From contig DATMML010000022.1 of assembly GCA_035570235.1 (NCBI GenBank), forward strand, positions 1-41,343: 41,343 nucleotides of DNA. Reading direction: 5' to 3'. Under the pieces are notes generated by a model. The model was given only the letters and a program-made list of their open reading frames with translations. It was not told where the DNA came from and made no database searches. Each line of letters opens with the position of its first letter. Position 1 is the first letter of the stretch. Positions 31,610 to 41,343 of this stretch are shown here, one piece after another. Source of the stretch: Vicinamibacteria bacterium. GTDB taxonomy: Bacteria > Acidobacteriota > Vicinamibacteria > Fen-336. The position numbers were made by a program, and so were the translations under genes.

Positions 31610-32290
31610 TCAGAACCGCTTGAGGAGGTCCTCGCGCTTCTCCGCCGCCAGCGAGGTCAGGAGAACCTTGAGGCTGTCCAGAGACTCGGTGGTGAGGGTC
31701 TGGAAATCCTGACGGATGGCCTGAATCTGGTCCCACTCCCGGTCCGCTTCGGGCTCCTTCCTCACGATCCGCTGGGTGGACTCCATGAGGAAGCGGGCCC
31801 CGAGGGCGAAGCTGCGGCCCAGGATGTAGACCCGCAAGCGGTACCGTTCCGCGGTGGAAACCAAGAACTGGTGAAGGAGTCCGTTCAGGTAAGCAAGGCT
31901 CACGATCTGGGCCAGTTTGAAGTCGCGGGGGCGAAGGGGGTTGACGGGGGCCATAGCCGAGACCATGCGGGAGAAGGTGGCCATGGCAGCGAGGAGCTTC
32001 AGCATGTTGGGGGCGAACTTCTCGATCACTCGGTAGCCCACGTCTATGAGGTGGATGGCCTCGTCCACCGACCCCAGCTCGCGGACGGAGAAGGCCTCGT
32101 CGTAGGTCAGCTCGGCCAGGGCCATCTCAGAGTGCACGCGGCCCTCGATGCTCTTGTAGAGTTTCTCGCCCCGCGGCGTGAGAAGCAGTTCCCAATCTCG
32201 CCGGACGGCCCGCTCGTTGCGCAGCCCGAACAGGAAGAGGACGACCAGGCACCCTAGCGCCGAGAGACCGATCATCCAGAATACGCCCAC
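31610..32290 (-). CDS. Membrane-anchored protein, uncharacterised
   Basis: The 226-residue protein has one N-terminal helix (FWMIGLSALGCLVVLFLFGL) followed by about 200 mostly helical, mixed-charge residues (HSEMALAELTYDEAF, VGYRVIEKFAPNMLKLLAAM, DFQTLTTESLDSLKVLLTSL), presumably cytoplasmic. No family is recognised. It starts 12 bases after the upstream membrane-protein gene and probably shares its transcript. Confidence 0.65.
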   Translation of the reverse strand: MGVFWMIGLSALGCLVVLFLFGLRNERAVRRDWELLLTPRGEKLYKSIEGRVHSEMALAELTYDEAFSVRELGSVDEAIHLIDVGYRVIEKFAPNMLKLLAAMATFSRMVSAMAPVNPLRPRDFKLAQIVSLAYLNGLLHQFLVSTAERYRLRVYILGRSFALGARFLMESTQRIVRKEPEADREWDQIQAIRQDFQTLTTESLDSLKVLLTSLAAEKREDLLKRF

Positions 32291-32302: not shown

Positions 32303-33028
32303 CTAGCCCGGCAGTCGCTGCAGGGCCCGGACCCTTTCCGGGGCCTGGATGGGGGCGGCAGCGGGCAGCCAAGCCGCGCGCGCCCAGTAAGCCATGAGAG
32401 CAATATAGGCGCCCACGTCCGCGTAGTTCACGAGGGTCCGAAGGTCCCAGCCATAACTGTCCAGAACGTTGAGACCGGTAGTGAAGACGAGTAAGTAAGG
32501 TACGAACCCGATTAAGATGGCTTTGTGGAAGGGATCTACGGGAAGCCGGTACCAGAGGATCGTGGCCGCGATGGCGGCGAAGAGCCAGATGGTCCCGTTC
32601 ACCAAGCGCGGCTGGATGCGTCCCGCGATCAGCTCGAACGTAGGGGGAGCGGAGGCCGTGCTCTGGCTGCCGTCCCCGGTCACGGCCAACACCGTCACAA
32701 ACGTTACGGCCAAGAGTAGAAGCACCACGCCCCTCGCCGTGGACCGCGCTCCTGGGAACGCGCGGAAGGTCCGGAAGGACAACTCGAGAGCCACCCCGAA
32801 GCGGAGGGCGGCGACGAAGACTTCCTTCAGGACCCAGGCCATCCGGGTGTAAAACCACGCTGGCCCGAAGATCACCAGGAGGTCGAACGTCAGCACCGCC
32901 CCCAGGTACAGCACGAACGTGGGGCAGATGCGGTAGCGCCGCCGAATGACAATCCCGACCACGGCCGCCAGGATCAGCAAATCCCCGGCGAGCGCGACGG
33001 CGATCTCGATCAGGCTCATGTGACCCAT
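32303..33028 (-). CDS. Seven-helix integral membrane protein, uncharacterised
   Basis: The 241-residue protein has about seven hydrophobic segments separated by short basic loops. There is an RRRYRICPTFVLYLGAV segment after the first helix, and FRTFRAFPGAR and YGWDLRTLVNYADVGAY later. The layout resembles small sensor- or receptor-like membrane proteins, but no motif assigns a function. The ATG at 33028 has GAGG five bases upstream; an ATG at 33019 is an alternative. Same strand and operon as the following membrane-anchored gene. Confidence 0.65.
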   Translation of the reverse strand: MGHMSLIEIAVALAGDLLILAAVVGIVIRRRYRICPTFVLYLGAVLTFDLLVIFGPAWFYTRMAWVLKEVFVAALRFGVALELSFRTFRAFPGARSTARGVVLLLLAVTFVTVLAVTGDGSQSTASAPPTFELIAGRIQPRLVNGTIWLFAAIAATILWYRLPVDPFHKAILIGFVPYLLVFTTGLNVLDSYGWDLRTLVNYADVGAYIALMAYWARAAWLPAAAPIQAPERVRALQRLPG

Positions 33029-33196: not shown

Positions 33197-33403
33197 TCAC
33201 CGCGGGGGGATCCCGGTCATTCCATCCAAGGCGTGATAGGCCGCGTTCGGCGGGATGCCCGTCATGCCATCATTGGCCTTGGGGGGGATCCCGGTCATGC
33301 CGTCATTGGCCCGCAGCGTACCGCTCACGCCTCCGCCGAACCCCACGCCCCCTAAGTCACCGTCAAACCTGAACAAAGACACCATCATGAAGATCCAGAG
33401 CAT
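33197..33403 (-). CDS. Small peptide with three GMTGIPP repeats
   Basis: The 68-residue ORF starts at ATG 33403 with AGGGAGG five bases upstream. It has a short hydrophobic N-terminus (MLWIFMMVSLF), a Gly-rich stretch (DGDLGGVGFGGGVSG), then three copies of GMTGIPP, the first two as NDGMTGIPP, separated by KA and NAAYHAL. The three DNA copies differ only at synonymous third positions, which supports this reading frame and selection on the peptide. It diverges from the GAF-HTH regulator. It may be a secreted or processed peptide, but no known family fits. Confidence 0.65.
   Translation of the reverse strand: MLWIFMMVSLFRFDGDLGGVGFGGGVSGTLRANDGMTGIPPKANDGMTGIPPNAAYHALDGMTGIPPR
33208..33310 (-). 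repeat. Three short tandem repeats inside the peptide gene
   Basis: Three copies of a 21-base unit (GGCATGACCGGGATCCC-type) lie within the peptide gene, two of them extended by an AATGA(C/T) codon pair. Spacing is irregular (about 27 and 39 bases), and the copies differ at third codon positions. This is a protein-level repeat, not a CRISPR or satellite. Confidence 0.7.
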
Positions 33404-33420
33404 TTTCGCCTCCCTTGTTA

Positions 33421-33447
33421 GTGTGTACTGCGGTGGTCAGTATACAC
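33421..33447. promoter_or_regulatory. Candidate operator: 10-bp inverted repeat between divergent genes
   Basis: GTGTGTACTG and CAGTATACAC are inverted repeats with one mismatch in ten and a seven-base spacer. The element lies 18 bases upstream of the peptide ATG and about 125 upstream of the regulator. AT-rich sequence follows, with a possible plus-strand promoter of TATACA (33441-33446), 17 bases, then TATACG (33464-33469) preceded by TG. The repeat could be a dimer binding site or a hairpin in the peptide leader. Confidence 0.5.
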
Positions 33448-33571
33448 TTCTTGTCAATTGTGATATACGTAACATGTACCGTTGTCGCGAAGACCGGTTC
33501 TGGAGGGTCCAACTTCTTGACGTGGCTGCTAGGAAACGGTTAATATTGGGTTCCCAATTGGAGGTGAGCCT

Positions 33572-34279
33572 GTGAAACGTCGCGTGGACCTCATTGATCA
33601 GTTCGCCGACCTTGTGGTCGGCGCAGACGATCCACGACGTCTGGCGGAGCGGACGTTGGAAGTCGTCATGTCGCTGAACAACGGCCGTAGCGGGGCTGTC
33701 TTTTCGTGCTCCGACGACCGGGTCGCGCTCTTCGCCTCCCGCGGGATCGATCAAGCGGTGCTCGATGCGGTTGAGACCGTCTGGAGCCGCAGCCGCGATT
33801 CCCTGCGGAAGGGGGAGACGTTCTACGTTCCGGACCGTACGGTCGAGCGGAGGCTACCGCCAGAGAATGGGGATCAATCGGGCGCGGCCAGCTTCGCGGT
33901 GGTGCCGGTCTTCGAGGCGGAGACCCTGGTGGCGTTGCTCTACGTGGACAGCCATGACCCCCACTTTTGTGCGTCCCACGACCTCGAGCGGCTCACCAAG
34001 TTCTCGCGGATCGTGGCCAAGGCGGTGACGGACAACGTGCCCGTCCGGGACCGCGCGCGGGCTCAGGCCGACGCTTGGGAGACGTACCTCGAACGGACGC
34101 CGGTGGAAGACATGGAGCGCGAGAAGCTGTTGCTGCTTCTCAACCGCAACGAGTGGAACATCGCCCGCGTGGCGCGCCTCATGGGCGTGACACGACGCAC
34201 GATCTACTTGCGGCTGCAGCGATACAACATCCCGCGCGAGCGGGTGCCTAAGACCCGGCTGCGTCCCGCCACCATCTGA
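33572..34279 (+). CDS. GAF-domain regulator with C-terminal Fis-type HTH
   Basis: The 235-residue cytoplasmic protein has a GAF-like sensor at about 10-155 (LAERTLEVVMSLNNGRSGAV, SFAVVPVFEAETLVALLYVD). A linker is followed by a Fis/NtrC-type HTH at about 183-222 (LLLLLNRNEWNIARVARLMG, then VTRRTIYLRLQRYNI). It lacks an AAA+ domain, so it is not a sigma-54 activator. GGAGG lies just ahead of the start at 33572. It diverges from the GMTGIPP-repeat peptide gene and is the obvious candidate to control it. The ligand is unknown. Confidence 0.85.
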   Translation: MKRRVDLIDQFADLVVGADDPRRLAERTLEVVMSLNNGRSGAVFSCSDDRVALFASRGIDQAVLDAVETVWSRSRDSLRKGETFYVPDRTVERRLPPENGDQSGAASFAVVPVFEAETLVALLYVDSHDPHFCASHDLERLTKFSRIVAKAVTDNVPVRDRARAQADAWETYLERTPVEDMEREKLLLLLNRNEWNIARVARLMGVTRRTIYLRLQRYNIPRERVPKTRLRPATI

Positions 34280-37707: not shown

Positions 37708-40404
37708 ATGCTAGAGTTACGGCCAAATTCTATGCCGCGGGAGCCGGGCGTGCCCAAGAGCCCTGCCGGCCAATACGGCCTCCTGGCCCTGCTCCTTGTT
37801 ACCGCACTCGCTTATCAGACGCGAGTGACGGCATACCAATATCCCCACTGGTTCGGTGGTCCGGATAGAGCCGCGAGCCCCTTCTACGTAGCAACAGACG
37901 CAAATGGAGTGGTGATCAGACTATTGACACCTGAAGCCCTGGCCGCAGGTGCTCGCGATGGCGACGAACTAATGGCCGTCCAGGGTCGACGCGTAGAGGG
38001 GATTGCGGTCTTTGGCGAAGCGCTCGCTAAAGCCCGCCCCGGTGATGTCCTGCAGATAGAGCTCCGCTCCCGGGAGGGGGGAAAACCACAGCCAGAGCGC
38101 GCGGTGCACGTCACACTGCGAGCCCACGAATGGGGCGATGCCTTAAGCCTGATTTTCTTCGTGATGATGCCCTTTTTCTGTCTGCTGCTTGGATTCTGGG
38201 TGGCCGCGGTAAGGCCCCGGGATCCCTTGGCGTGGCTGCTCTTGGCGCTCATGCTGAGTTTCACCGCGTTCCCCTATCCGGGGGTCGAGACTTGGGGGGC
38301 GGTCTGGCGCGATCTGGGACAGGTGTACCAGAGGGGCCTCAACTCGACGTGGGCTTTGGGAATGATGCTGTTTGGCATCTATTTCCCAGCGCCGTTTGCT
38401 CCGGACCAACGCCGGCGTTGGTGGGACTGGTGCAAGTGGTTGATCGGTGTGCCCCTAGCCGTCCTGGCGGTGCCGAGCATGATCGAGGCTGTGGGTGAAC
38501 TGGAAAACCTGGCTGCGGTCATGCCCCTTGAACGCCTGGATATCTATTCCAACACTGTGGTCTCCCTCCTCTCCTATGCCGCGGTGGCGGTGTTCTTTGC
38601 CTCGCTCGGAGCCAAGATGGGCCGGGCCGGATCGAAGGACGCTAAGAGGCGCCTCCGGCTCCTCTTCTGGGGCGCCAATGTCAGCTTGAGTCCCATCTTT
38701 GTCCTCACGATCATCGCTCACTACAAGCACGTGCTTCTCGAGGCTGCTGTCCCAAAATGGGTGAGCGCTCCCGCCTCTCTGCTCCTTTTTCTTTTCCCGG
38801 TCACCCTCGCCTACGTCATCGTCGTGCATCGGGCGATGGATGTCCGGGTGGTCATCCGGCAGGGACTGCAGTATGCCGTGGCCAAGGGTGGCATCCGTCT
38901 GTTGCGCTTGGCGGTCGGCTTCGCGCTCGGGGCCGCCGTTCTGGGGGCCCTCAGGGGCGTGGACCGGGGCGGGCTGACCTTTTATGCCATCATCGCGGCC
39001 GGGGTTGGGGTCTGGTTCGGGCTGCGGAGTGGTCTCGAGTGGCTACACGCCTGGACGGACCGCCGTTTCTTCCGCGACGCATACCAGGCCGAGAAAATCC
39101 TGAGCGAACTGAGTGACAGCGTGCGCTCGATCGGCGAAACCAAGTCCTTGCTCATGACGGTCGCCGAGCGCATCGCGGAGTCCATGCACGTGCCCCGCAT
39201 CGCGGTCTTGATAGATGGTAGCGGTCCCTATCGCCCCGCCTACGCGCTCGGTTACCCCGAGATCCCAGACGTGACCTTCCCCCCAAACGCGGTCACGGTT
39301 CGTCAGCTCGGGTGCGAGGGCAACCCCCTGCGCGTGTATCTTGACAATCCGAACTCGTGGGTAAACCGTTCGCCCGAGCTGACCCCGGAGGAACGCGCCC
39401 AGCTCGAGCTGCTCGAAAGCGAGCTCTTGTTGCCCCTAACCTTGAAGGACAAGCTCCTCGGGTTCGTGAGCCTCAGTCAAAAGCGATCCGAGGAGCCCTA
39501 TTCCGGCGGCGACCTGCGGCTCCTTAAGTCGGTGGCGACCCAGACCGGTCTTGCCCTCGAAAACTCACGCCTCACCGCGACCATAGCGGAAAGCGTCGCC
39601 CGGCGCGAGAAGCTGAACCGCGAGCTGGAAATCGCGCGTGAGGTTCAGGAGCGCTTGTTCCCCCAGAGGCTGCCCGCAGTCGCGGGGCTTGATTACTTTG
39701 GCAAGTGCCGCCCCGCGCTCGGCGTGGGCGGGGACTACTACGACTTCCTGGCCCTACCCGGGGGAAAGCTAGGCATTGCGATCGGCGATGTCTCCGGCAA
39801 GGGAATTGCGGCCGCTCTCATGATGGCTAGCCTTGAAGCGTCGCTCCGGGCCGAGGCCATGCGCGGCACCGATGATCTGTGCACCCTCATTCAGAGCGTG
39901 AATCGCCTGGTGTTCGATGCGACGGCGGAGAACCGTTACGCGACGTTTTTCTACGCCCAGTACGACCCTTCTTCTCGCCGCTTGACCTACGTGAACGCCG
40001 GGCACAACCCCCCCATGCTCTTTCGGCGAACGGGCGGAGCCGGCATGCCATCGCGATTGGAGGCGACGGGCACCGTCGTGGGACTGCTTGCCGACCCCGC
40101 CTTCCATCAAGCTTCCCTCACCCTTCAGCCCGGGGACGTCTTTCTCGCCTACACGGACGGGGTGAGTGAGGCAATGAACTCCGCGGATGAGGAGTGGGGC
40201 GAAGGCGGGATGATAGCGACGATGGGAAGCGCGGATGGCTTATGCGCGGCCGAGACCGTGGAGCGCATCATCGGTGCCGCGGATTCGTTCGCGGCGGGTG
40301 CTGAGCAACACGACGACATGACCTTGGTGGTATTGAGGGTTCTGATTGAATCCGCCGTAGCCGGTCAACACGCTGAAGGACTAACGGTAACCCCCAGGAC
40401 CTAG
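37708..40404 (+). CDS. Membrane SpoIIE-type (PP2C) serine/threonine phosphatase
   Basis: The 898-residue protein has a membrane helix at about 20-40, a PDZ-like segment at about 55-130 (VVIRLLTPEALAAGARDGDE), several helices to about 430, a GAF-like domain at about 460-620, a short helix (REKLNRELEIAREVQERLFP), and a SpoIIE/PP2C domain at about 640-880. PP2C metal motifs are GVGGDYYDF near 672, GDVSGKGIAAALMM, NAGHNPP and the C-terminal HDDMTLVVL. It probably dephosphorylates an anti-sigma-factor antagonist in a partner-switching stress response. ATG 37708 or 37732 may be the start; neither has a clear RBS. Confidence 0.9.
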   Translation: MLELRPNSMPREPGVPKSPAGQYGLLALLLVTALAYQTRVTAYQYPHWFGGPDRAASPFYVATDANGVVIRLLTPEALAAGARDGDELMAVQGRRVEGIAVFGEALAKARPGDVLQIELRSREGGKPQPERAVHVTLRAHEWGDALSLIFFVMMPFFCLLLGFWVAAVRPRDPLAWLLLALMLSFTAFPYPGVETWGAVWRDLGQVYQRGLNSTWALGMMLFGIYFPAPFAPDQRRRWWDWCKWLIGVPLAVLAVPSMIEAVGELENLAAVMPLERLDIYSNTVVSLLSYAAVAVFFASLGAKMGRAGSKDAKRRLRLLFWGANVSLSPIFVLTIIAHYKHVLLEAAVPKWVSAPASLLLFLFPVTLAYVIVVHRAMDVRVVIRQGLQYAVAKGGIRLLRLAVGFALGAAVLGALRGVDRGGLTFYAIIAAGVGVWFGLRSGLEWLHAWTDRRFFRDAYQAEKILSELSDSVRSIGETKSLLMTVAERIAESMHVPRIAVLIDGSGPYRPAYALGYPEIPDVTFPPNAVTVRQLGCEGNPLRVYLDNPNSWVNRSPELTPEERAQLELLESELLLPLTLKDKLLGFVSLSQKRSEEPYSGGDLRLLKSVATQTGLALENSRLTATIAESVARREKLNRELEIAREVQERLFPQRLPAVAGLDYFGKCRPALGVGGDYYDFLALPGGKLGIAIGDVSGKGIAAALMMASLEASLRAEAMRGTDDLCTLIQSVNRLVFDATAENRYATFFYAQYDPSSRRLTYVNAGHNPPMLFRRTGGAGMPSRLEATGTVVGLLADPAFHQASLTLQPGDVFLAYTDGVSEAMNSADEEWGEGGMIATMGSADGLCAAETVERIIGAADSFAAGAEQHDDMTLVVLRVLIESAVAGQHAEGLTVTPRT

Positions 40405-40481: not shown

Positions 40482-41343
40482 CTATCGGACCTTAGCCACG
40501 ACCATCGTCATGTCGTCGTGCTGCTGCATGCCGTGCGCGAACTCGTCCACCGCTTGGATCACAGCCCCGACGATTCCCTCCGCCGGTCGTTCCGACGCCG
40601 CCCACAGAGCCTGCTCCAGGCGTTCCTCACCGAACTCCTCACCCTCCGGGCTGAAGGCCTCGGTGATTCCATCTGTGTAGGCGACCAGCAAATCGCCCGG
40701 GTTGAGGTGGATCCGGCACTCCTCGTAGGTGGTCCGTTGCAACGCGCCGATCACGAGGCCCCCCGTGCTGAGGCGTAGAGCCGTCACCAGCTCCGGGGCG
40801 ACGGCTACTCCTCCCTCGTTCGCGGAGCCGGGCCAGCTCGCTTGCTTCGCCAACGAGCCCGCGCCGGGCCCGTCGCCCCCCCGGCTGCCCCGGAACAAGA
40901 GGGGCGGGTTGTGGCCGGCATTGACGTAGGTGAGCTGGCCGGTGTGCTCGGCAAACTCGGCATAAAAGAAGCTGGCGAAGCGATTGCGCTCGGCGGAGCG
41001 ATAGAGCAGCCCGTTCATGGCCGCCACGAGTTGCCCGGGGGCGACGCTGCCCGCCTGGCTGCGAAGGGAAGCCTGCACCACCGACATGAGCAGGGCGGCC
41101 GAGATCCCCTTACCCGCCACGTCCGCGACCGCGATTCCGAGCCGTCCTTCCCCCAGCCGCAGGAAGTCGTAGTAGTCACCCCCCACCGCCTGCGCGGGGC
41201 GACACACGCCCGCCAGTTCCAGGTGCGGGGACTCGGGCGGGCGGTCCGGGAACAACCGCCGCTGTACGTCCGACGCCATGGCGATCTCCCGCCGCAGGAA
41301 CTCCTCCTCTGCCCGACGGTGCACGAGCTGGCTGTTCTCGATC
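40482..41343 (-). CDS. SpoIIE-type PP2C phosphatase, N-terminally truncated by the window
   Basis: The open frame runs off the right edge; the visible part (about 286 residues) reads IENSQLVHRRAEEEFLRREI, the usual end of a GAF domain and start of the helical linker. The catalytic domain follows: AVGGDYYDF, VADVAGKGISAALLM, NAGHNPPLLF, YTDGITEAF and HDDMTMVVAKV. A GTG at 41324 is in frame but is more likely internal. It resembles the convergent gene at 37708-40404 in the catalytic domain, so the two are paralogous in that part. Confidence 0.88.
   Translation of the reverse strand, partial: IENSQLVHRRAEEEFLRREIAMASDVQRRLFPDRPPESPHLELAGVCRPAQAVGGDYYDFLRLGEGRLGIAVADVAGKGISAALLMSVVQASLRSQAGSVAPGQLVAAMNGLLYRSAERNRFASFFYAEFAEHTGQLTYVNAGHNPPLLFRGSRGGDGPGAGSLAKQASWPGSANEGGVAVAPELVTALRLSTGGLVIGALQRTTYEECRIHLNPGDLLVAYTDGITEAFSPEGEEFGEERLEQALWAASERPAEGIVGAVIQAVDEFAHGMQQHDDMTMVVAKVR

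Follow-up and report, generated by a model that had tools for sequence, protein, structure and literature searches.

The gene called P here, on the minus strand at 33197–33403 of the window (the whole 41,343-nucleotide stretch analysed, from the assembly of a Vicinamibacteria bacterium, a soil member of the Acidobacteriota), encodes a 68-residue protein with a short hydrophobic N-terminus and three copies of the octapeptide DGMTGIPP, and has syntenic homologues. Sequence comparison indicates that P is probably the precursor of a multi-copy peptide signal, served by a cognate seven-helix (7TM) receptor R, a membrane-anchored transducer T and a DNA-binding output protein, all encoded beside it. 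Judged by their homologues, P, R and T each represent a conserved protein family that Pfam and NCBIfam lack.

The repeat peptide

Translated from the ATG at 33403 to 33197 on the minus strand, P reads MLWIFMMVSLFRFDGDLGGVGFGGGVSGTLRANDGMTGIPPKANDGMTGIPPNAAYHALDGMTGIPPR and is preceded by a near-perfect Shine-Dalgarno sequence (AAGGGAGGCGAAA-ATG; 33404–33418, minus strand), which bears out the 68-residue frame with a strong ribosome-binding site described in an earlier note on this DNA. That note had counted three copies of GMTGIPP; there are indeed three, but the perfect unit is eight residues long and not seven, DGMTGIPP, beginning at residues 34, 45 and 60 (residues 34–41, 45–52 and 60–67, at 33281–33304, 33248–33271 and 33203–33226 respectively, all on the minus strand). 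Position by position the codons of the three units are GAC/GAT/GAT, GGC/GGC/GGA, ATG, ACC/ACG/ACC, GGG/GGC/GGG, ATC, CCC/CCG/CCC and CCC/CCG/CCG. As first read by eye, only silent third positions differ: the minimum of variable third positions is six, all synonymous, and pairwise comparison of the units gives 12 synonymous and 0 nonsynonymous differences. Chance does not make this array, since a repeated 7-mer of any kind appeared in 3 of 100000 shuffles of the 68 residues, and a 7-mer present at least three times occurs in 3 of the 571 six-frame segments of the window, the two besides P being of low complexity.

The same pattern holds over eight arrays of the family, in which the minimal changes inside the cores are 41 synonymous and 0 nonsynonymous, the zero being partly ascertained because cores were located by exact match. 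Linkers vary within arrays whose cores do not, for instance RQVAYA/REVASL/RGVTYL in homologue L110, and one degenerate core was seen, in L064. Together with the shuffles, this count of silent and replacement changes, a check that the earlier note had proposed, upholds its argument for selection on the peptide and against chance repetition.

No coding sequence for GMTGIPP beyond P was found elsewhere in the window's own genome, and the DNA pattern for GMTGIPP alone gave no match outside that genome because the unit diverges, so that protein searches and synteny were needed to find relatives. The plus-strand ORFs antisense to P are interrupted by stops in the homologue L056; the minus-strand frame is therefore the coding one. 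A short hydrophobic N-terminus is present in all members of the family, and in the P of the window this stretch has no clear AxA signal-peptidase site, so that its leader argues weakly for export. P has no Pfam or NCBIfam match above the curated cut-off, in agreement with the initial impression that no known family is involved.

Neighbouring genes and a candidate operator

P is followed by R (32303–33028) and then T (31610–32290), all on the minus strand, and on its other side lies a divergent regulator (33572–34279, plus strand). R is a predicted seven-helix inner-membrane protein of 241 residues and the candidate peptide receptor; its AlphaFold model shows seven helices (pLDDT 80), and its positive charges sit in loops 1-2, 3-4 and 5-6, which therefore gives an N-out, C-in topology. 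T, the candidate transducer, is a 226-residue protein modelled as one N-terminal membrane helix and a helical bundle (pLDDT 84). The 235-residue regulator combines a GAF domain with a Fis-type HTH_8 and has no AAA+ domain. R has no Pfam, NCBIfam or PDB sequence match, and T has no Pfam or NCBIfam match and no significant PDB fold match. The superposition of R on GPCR-type 7TM proteins does not rise above background (VIA Z 10–11.6, under a helical-bundle background of about 13; Foldseek E at least 0.099), so we claim no homology with them. The single match to anti-phage defence, a weak one to PDLC04133 mad1 (E 0.00065), is confined to the helix-turn-helix of the regulator and was set aside.

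Multi-core RiPPs typically carry identical cores repeated behind a leader, and P has this layout, but that its cores are enzymatically modified is barely credible: neither the neighbours in the window nor the homologous loci that were inspected include a RiPP modification enzyme, and the units of the window's clade carry no conserved Cys/Ser/Thr pattern.

Upstream of P lies a candidate operator/promoter, GTATAT-N17-GTATACT (33439–33468, minus strand; 65–36 nt upstream of the ATG), the second hexamer of which plausibly doubles as a -10 box. Its general form, GTATAY-N17-RTATACT, is present in 6 of 6 close-clade loci, starting 65–81 nt before the start codon of P, and in none of 2000 shuffles. 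It occurs once in the 5.7-Mb genome of the window, just upstream of P. In a survey of 14 genomes of the family, all six with a close regulator carry the site at the module, one of them having one extra, and none was found in the remaining eight. The simplest interpretation has the GAF-Fis protein acting at this single promoter.

Homologous modules in the order of the window

Of 193 genomes of the class, 13 carry T, and all 13 belong to the window's own order; the named relatives are Vicinamibacteria or Acidobacteria MAGs. Every R-T module of this order with intact flanks has a small hydrophobic-leader ORF at its regulator end, in one of two arrangements. In the first, as in the window, P stands ahead of R and T with the regulator divergent, and the peptides carry three ADGSTGIPPH (L056), three AEGGAAFPT (L057), or DGGSGIPPV twice with one degenerate copy (L064), or end in single-copy tails: ...DDPYPPPKP (L059), ...EDPFPPPRP (L075), ...AEGPINPPPKP (L058) and ...ADGSSPIPPPPPPPGP (L065). 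In the second (L061, L066–L068 and L070–L073), regulator, R and T form one operon from which P diverges, and the tails are ...EGGSTQPPPK (L061), ...NDGGTPAPPPDGRGGKR (L066), ...NDGPGDMPPKR (L067), ...MDGGNPWPPVKK (L068) and ...KDGGNPWPKPPK (L070), with similar ones in L071–L073. The leader M(R/K)xWFxFPxxLLMLSPxWLER is common to the peptides of L056 and L057, whose units differ between the two loci but are uniform within each, a signature of concerted evolution; across the relatives generally, units diverge between genomes and remain uniform within one gene.

The small protein might have been a cis-acting leader of the SecM/TnaC type, in which stalling of the ribosome at PP(P)-stop controls the gene for the downstream membrane protein. 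The N-terminus is hydrophobic, many single-copy members have a proline-rich end near the stop codon, and P directly precedes R both in the window and in more distant relatives of the class Terriglobia. In eight loci, however, P is transcribed away from R, and no consistent gene was found downstream of it there; arrays of 3–10 units and tandem gene copies would also be senseless for a single arrest event. Because P can point away from R, an arrangement that largely refutes it, we reject this very improbable explanation. That P stays beside R whichever its direction argues instead for action in trans.

The homologues also speak to the proposal, made from the window alone, that relatives should differ in repeat number and conserve GMTGIPP. 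Copy number is 1, 2, 3, 4 or 10 (three in L056 and L057, two and a degenerate one in L064, four in L110 and ten in L091), single-copy relatives being common. GMTGIPP itself is not conserved; what is kept is a core closer to [DE]-G-x-x-(P)-[IVW]-P-P. The frames of all syntenic homologues are intact, none being broken in the way that the earlier note had named as telling against it. The likeness it saw to precursors of multi-copy peptides is strengthened accordingly, as homologous genes keep their place, vary in repeat number and stay open.

The genome of the window holds further copies. A second R, at L108:5629-6326 on contig C64, is 92–95% identical, frameshifted and without peptide, T or regulator; it is a recent partial duplication that has since decayed. 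Two more paralogous modules lie on contig C101 (L064, with its DGGSGIPPV-repeat peptide) and on contig C70 (L069), where the module ends at the contig edge.

Relatives in other classes

The same gene set is found on a gp11 Acidobacteria contig (L091), in which P consists of a leader and 10 copies of (A/T)DGGGPIPPA, nearly all set in the frame ADGGGPIPPAPTQ(I/V). L110, in genome G313, has four copies of EDGTGPIPPPA beside R and a divergent regulator. Upstream of its complement ORF starting at 705, a repeated GTGTGGCACAAGC element stands in place of the GTATAC pair and is possibly a different operator.

Homology links R to a large family (hhalign probability 97.9, E 3.7e-13, 224 columns) from a class that we take, from general knowledge of the phylum, to be Terriglobia; a single query recovered it in 52 of the 151 genomes sampled from this class, concentrated in one of its families. 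A small ORF with a Shine-Dalgarno sequence and a hydrophobic N-terminus, at most 450 nt upstream of the gene, directly precedes R in 26 of 35 Terriglobia loci, compared with 9 of 233 control genes taken from those loci, and in 15 of 30 loci of a second, partly overlapping batch under a strict filter; as the loci are phylogenetically non-independent, these counts show association and not a level of significance. Repeat peptides there include four copies of ADGSGPVPPFPPKPP and two of WADGGSPVPPFPD; by locus, L167 has four copies of DGSGPVPPFPPKPP and L174 the two of WADGGSPVPPFPD. Several of the peptides carry repeats of (A/W)DGxxPVPP and some a single one. Many have no DG motif and have Cys instead, among them those with a Cys/Pro-rich tail, PVPxCxPDDPNACG, encoded in one to three tandem gene copies. 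Unlike that of the window, several Terriglobia leaders have an AxA-like site directly before DG, which suggests that D may be the mature N-terminus.

Other parts of the module differ between the classes. No homology was detectable between T and the small protein that follows R in Terriglobia, and the regulator next to the Terriglobia loci is of a different type from GAF-Fis and reads as XRE-like. At L167:6818-7898 and L174:6470-7637 the peptide-R pair lies beside a divergent conserved protein of 149 residues (..HVATLRDMGTGRYRHAG..) and an apparently XRE-like regulator; in L167 neither gave a Pfam or NCBIfam match above cut-off. Judged by these loci, P and R are the pair that stays constant throughout the phylum, whereas T and the type of regulator can be replaced.

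So constant a genetic pairing would also be expected if the small protein were a membrane-tethered accessory subunit of R, anchored by its N-terminus and never released, whose proline-rich tail binds R and tunes it. Leaders such as MRFWFVFPLTLLMLSPLWLER have no obvious signal-peptidase site, and single-copy tails could act as ligand arms. Tethering alone, however, leaves uniform repeats of 3, 4 or 10 units unexplained, and likewise the tandem duplicate genes and the AxA sites that directly precede DG in Terriglobia. We therefore consider a tethered subunit unlikely and favour a released peptide.

Divergence of the peptide and its partner

The four proteins diverge at different rates, mean identity in the close clade being 76% for the regulator, 69% for T, 47% for R and 33% for P. 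Within R the predicted periplasmic loops are 16–45% identical and the cytoplasmic loops 57–78%, a contrast seen in every pair. A receptor following a changing ligand would show this pattern, although the outer (periplasmic) loops of ordinary membrane proteins are often less conserved for other reasons.

The order of these rates bears on whether the receptor might be the regulator itself, the peptide being re-imported as a pheromone and sensed by the GAF domain with RRNPP-like logic, and R a transporter or an unrelated membrane partner. The regulator does have a GAF domain of ligand type and is the DNA-binding neighbour of the sole matching site in the genome. Yet it diverges slowest while R diverges fast, and it is R that stays with the peptide throughout the phylum as the regulator changes from GAF-Fis to XRE-like; re-import is thus rather improbable.

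A short hydrophobic-leader peptide with diversifying units, encoded head to tail with the gene of a membrane protein, as in the window, could also be a small bacteriocin, an antimicrobial repeat peptide for which R and T would provide immunity or export. There is, however, no ABC exporter, peptidase or modification enzyme nearby, the DG-PP units are neutral or acidic and not amphipathic, and the module has a dedicated, conserved regulator and a single operator. The strong conservation of the cytoplasmic loops of R fits coupling over immunity. With enzymes and exporters absent, the RiPP and bacteriocin readings were rejected or down-weighted, and we hold a bacteriocin to be decidedly unlikely.

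Proposed mechanism and relation to known systems

In the signalling mechanism that we favour, P would encode, in several copies, a linear signal that is short and rich in proline, roughly DGMTGIPP with some flanking residues. Its short hydrophobic N-terminus would take the precursor into the membrane or the Sec pathway, and a cut at or near the DG boundary would release several copies of the peptide. We infer that these are bound and sensed by R at its periplasmic face, and that the conserved cytoplasmic loops of R pass the signal on, probably together with T, to the divergent GAF-Fis regulator, whose output at the single GTATAY-N17-RTATACT site would close a feedback loop on the peptide-R-T operon. 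Support at the level of sequence comes from repeats under purifying selection, from a conserved set of neighbouring genes, from the pairing with R throughout the phylum, from the operator, and from the contrast between the conserved inner and variable outer loops of R. The peptide may also leave the periplasm to act between cells, although released peptides of about 1 kDa might not readily cross the outer membrane.

This organisation has parallels in several known systems. Like the Phr precursors of Bacillus (Rap-Phr, RRNPP), P would be a short pre-pro-peptide with a hydrophobic N-terminus and a presumptive mature peptide at the C-terminal end, its gene lying beside that of the candidate receptor. 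For Rap-Phr, duplication of the autoinducer within its own gene is documented, the repeats being identical or diverging, and intragenic pheromone duplications are noted in fungi (PMC5199041). The Rap receptor is, however, a cytoplasmic TPR protein reached by import, whereas P, in a Gram-negative phylum, is constantly partnered by a seven-helix membrane protein. The neighbours of P (GAF-HTH_8, seven-helix membrane protein and one-TM helical protein) gave no match to a TPR family, and membership of the RRNPP group, surveys of which cover Bacillota and their mobile elements (PMC10075063), fails because there is no TPR receptor.

Yeast alpha-factor and Ste2 likewise pair a multi-copy, proline-containing precursor with a seven-helix receptor, the role for which R is a candidate, but no part of the two systems shows detectable homology. 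The yeast system is eukaryotic and G-protein coupled, with processing by Kex2 and Ste13. Streptococcal SHP/Rgg resembles the module in its tiny precursor with a short hydrophobic segment and its adjacent divergent regulator; there the hydrophobic C-terminus serves as the signal and the regulator acts as its own receptor for it, with no membrane receptor and no repeats. In ComCD and AgrBD-AC the peptide is sensed by a multi-helix membrane protein encoded alongside, as we propose for R, but the P module has no histidine kinase or response regulator. Pfam and NCBIfam searches found no kinase domain in R or T, so membership of the two-component pheromone systems fails, as does that of the RiPPs for lack of enzymes. 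P does combine several near-identical units in one short precursor under purifying selection, and the best explanation by analogy is that it would work like the Phr or alpha-factor precursors yet belong to no named family.

More widely, we see evenly balanced prospects that Acidobacteriota possess a phylum-wide class of linear peptide signals with dedicated seven-helix receptors, a counterpart of the fungal pheromone-7TM systems unrelated to RRNPP, Agr or Com, in which the signal would be multiplied either within one gene, by up to 10 internal repeats, or by tandem copies of the gene. Members of this phylum are among the most common bacteria in soil, and searches of the open-access journal literature found no account of peptide signalling in them. 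If correct, this would name a signal and a receptor for the whole phylum, offer testable peptides of about 8–13 residues and provide a seven-helix bacterial receptor with diversified peptide specificities; the signalling claim aside, P, R and T would still stand as conserved families new to Pfam and NCBIfam.

The window also encodes, at 37708–40404 and 40488–41342, two adjoining SpoIIE-type phosphatase proteins that are 42% identical over 262 aligned residues; of this pair, which has no obvious tie to the peptide module, one is a membrane protein of 898 residues with a GAF domain.
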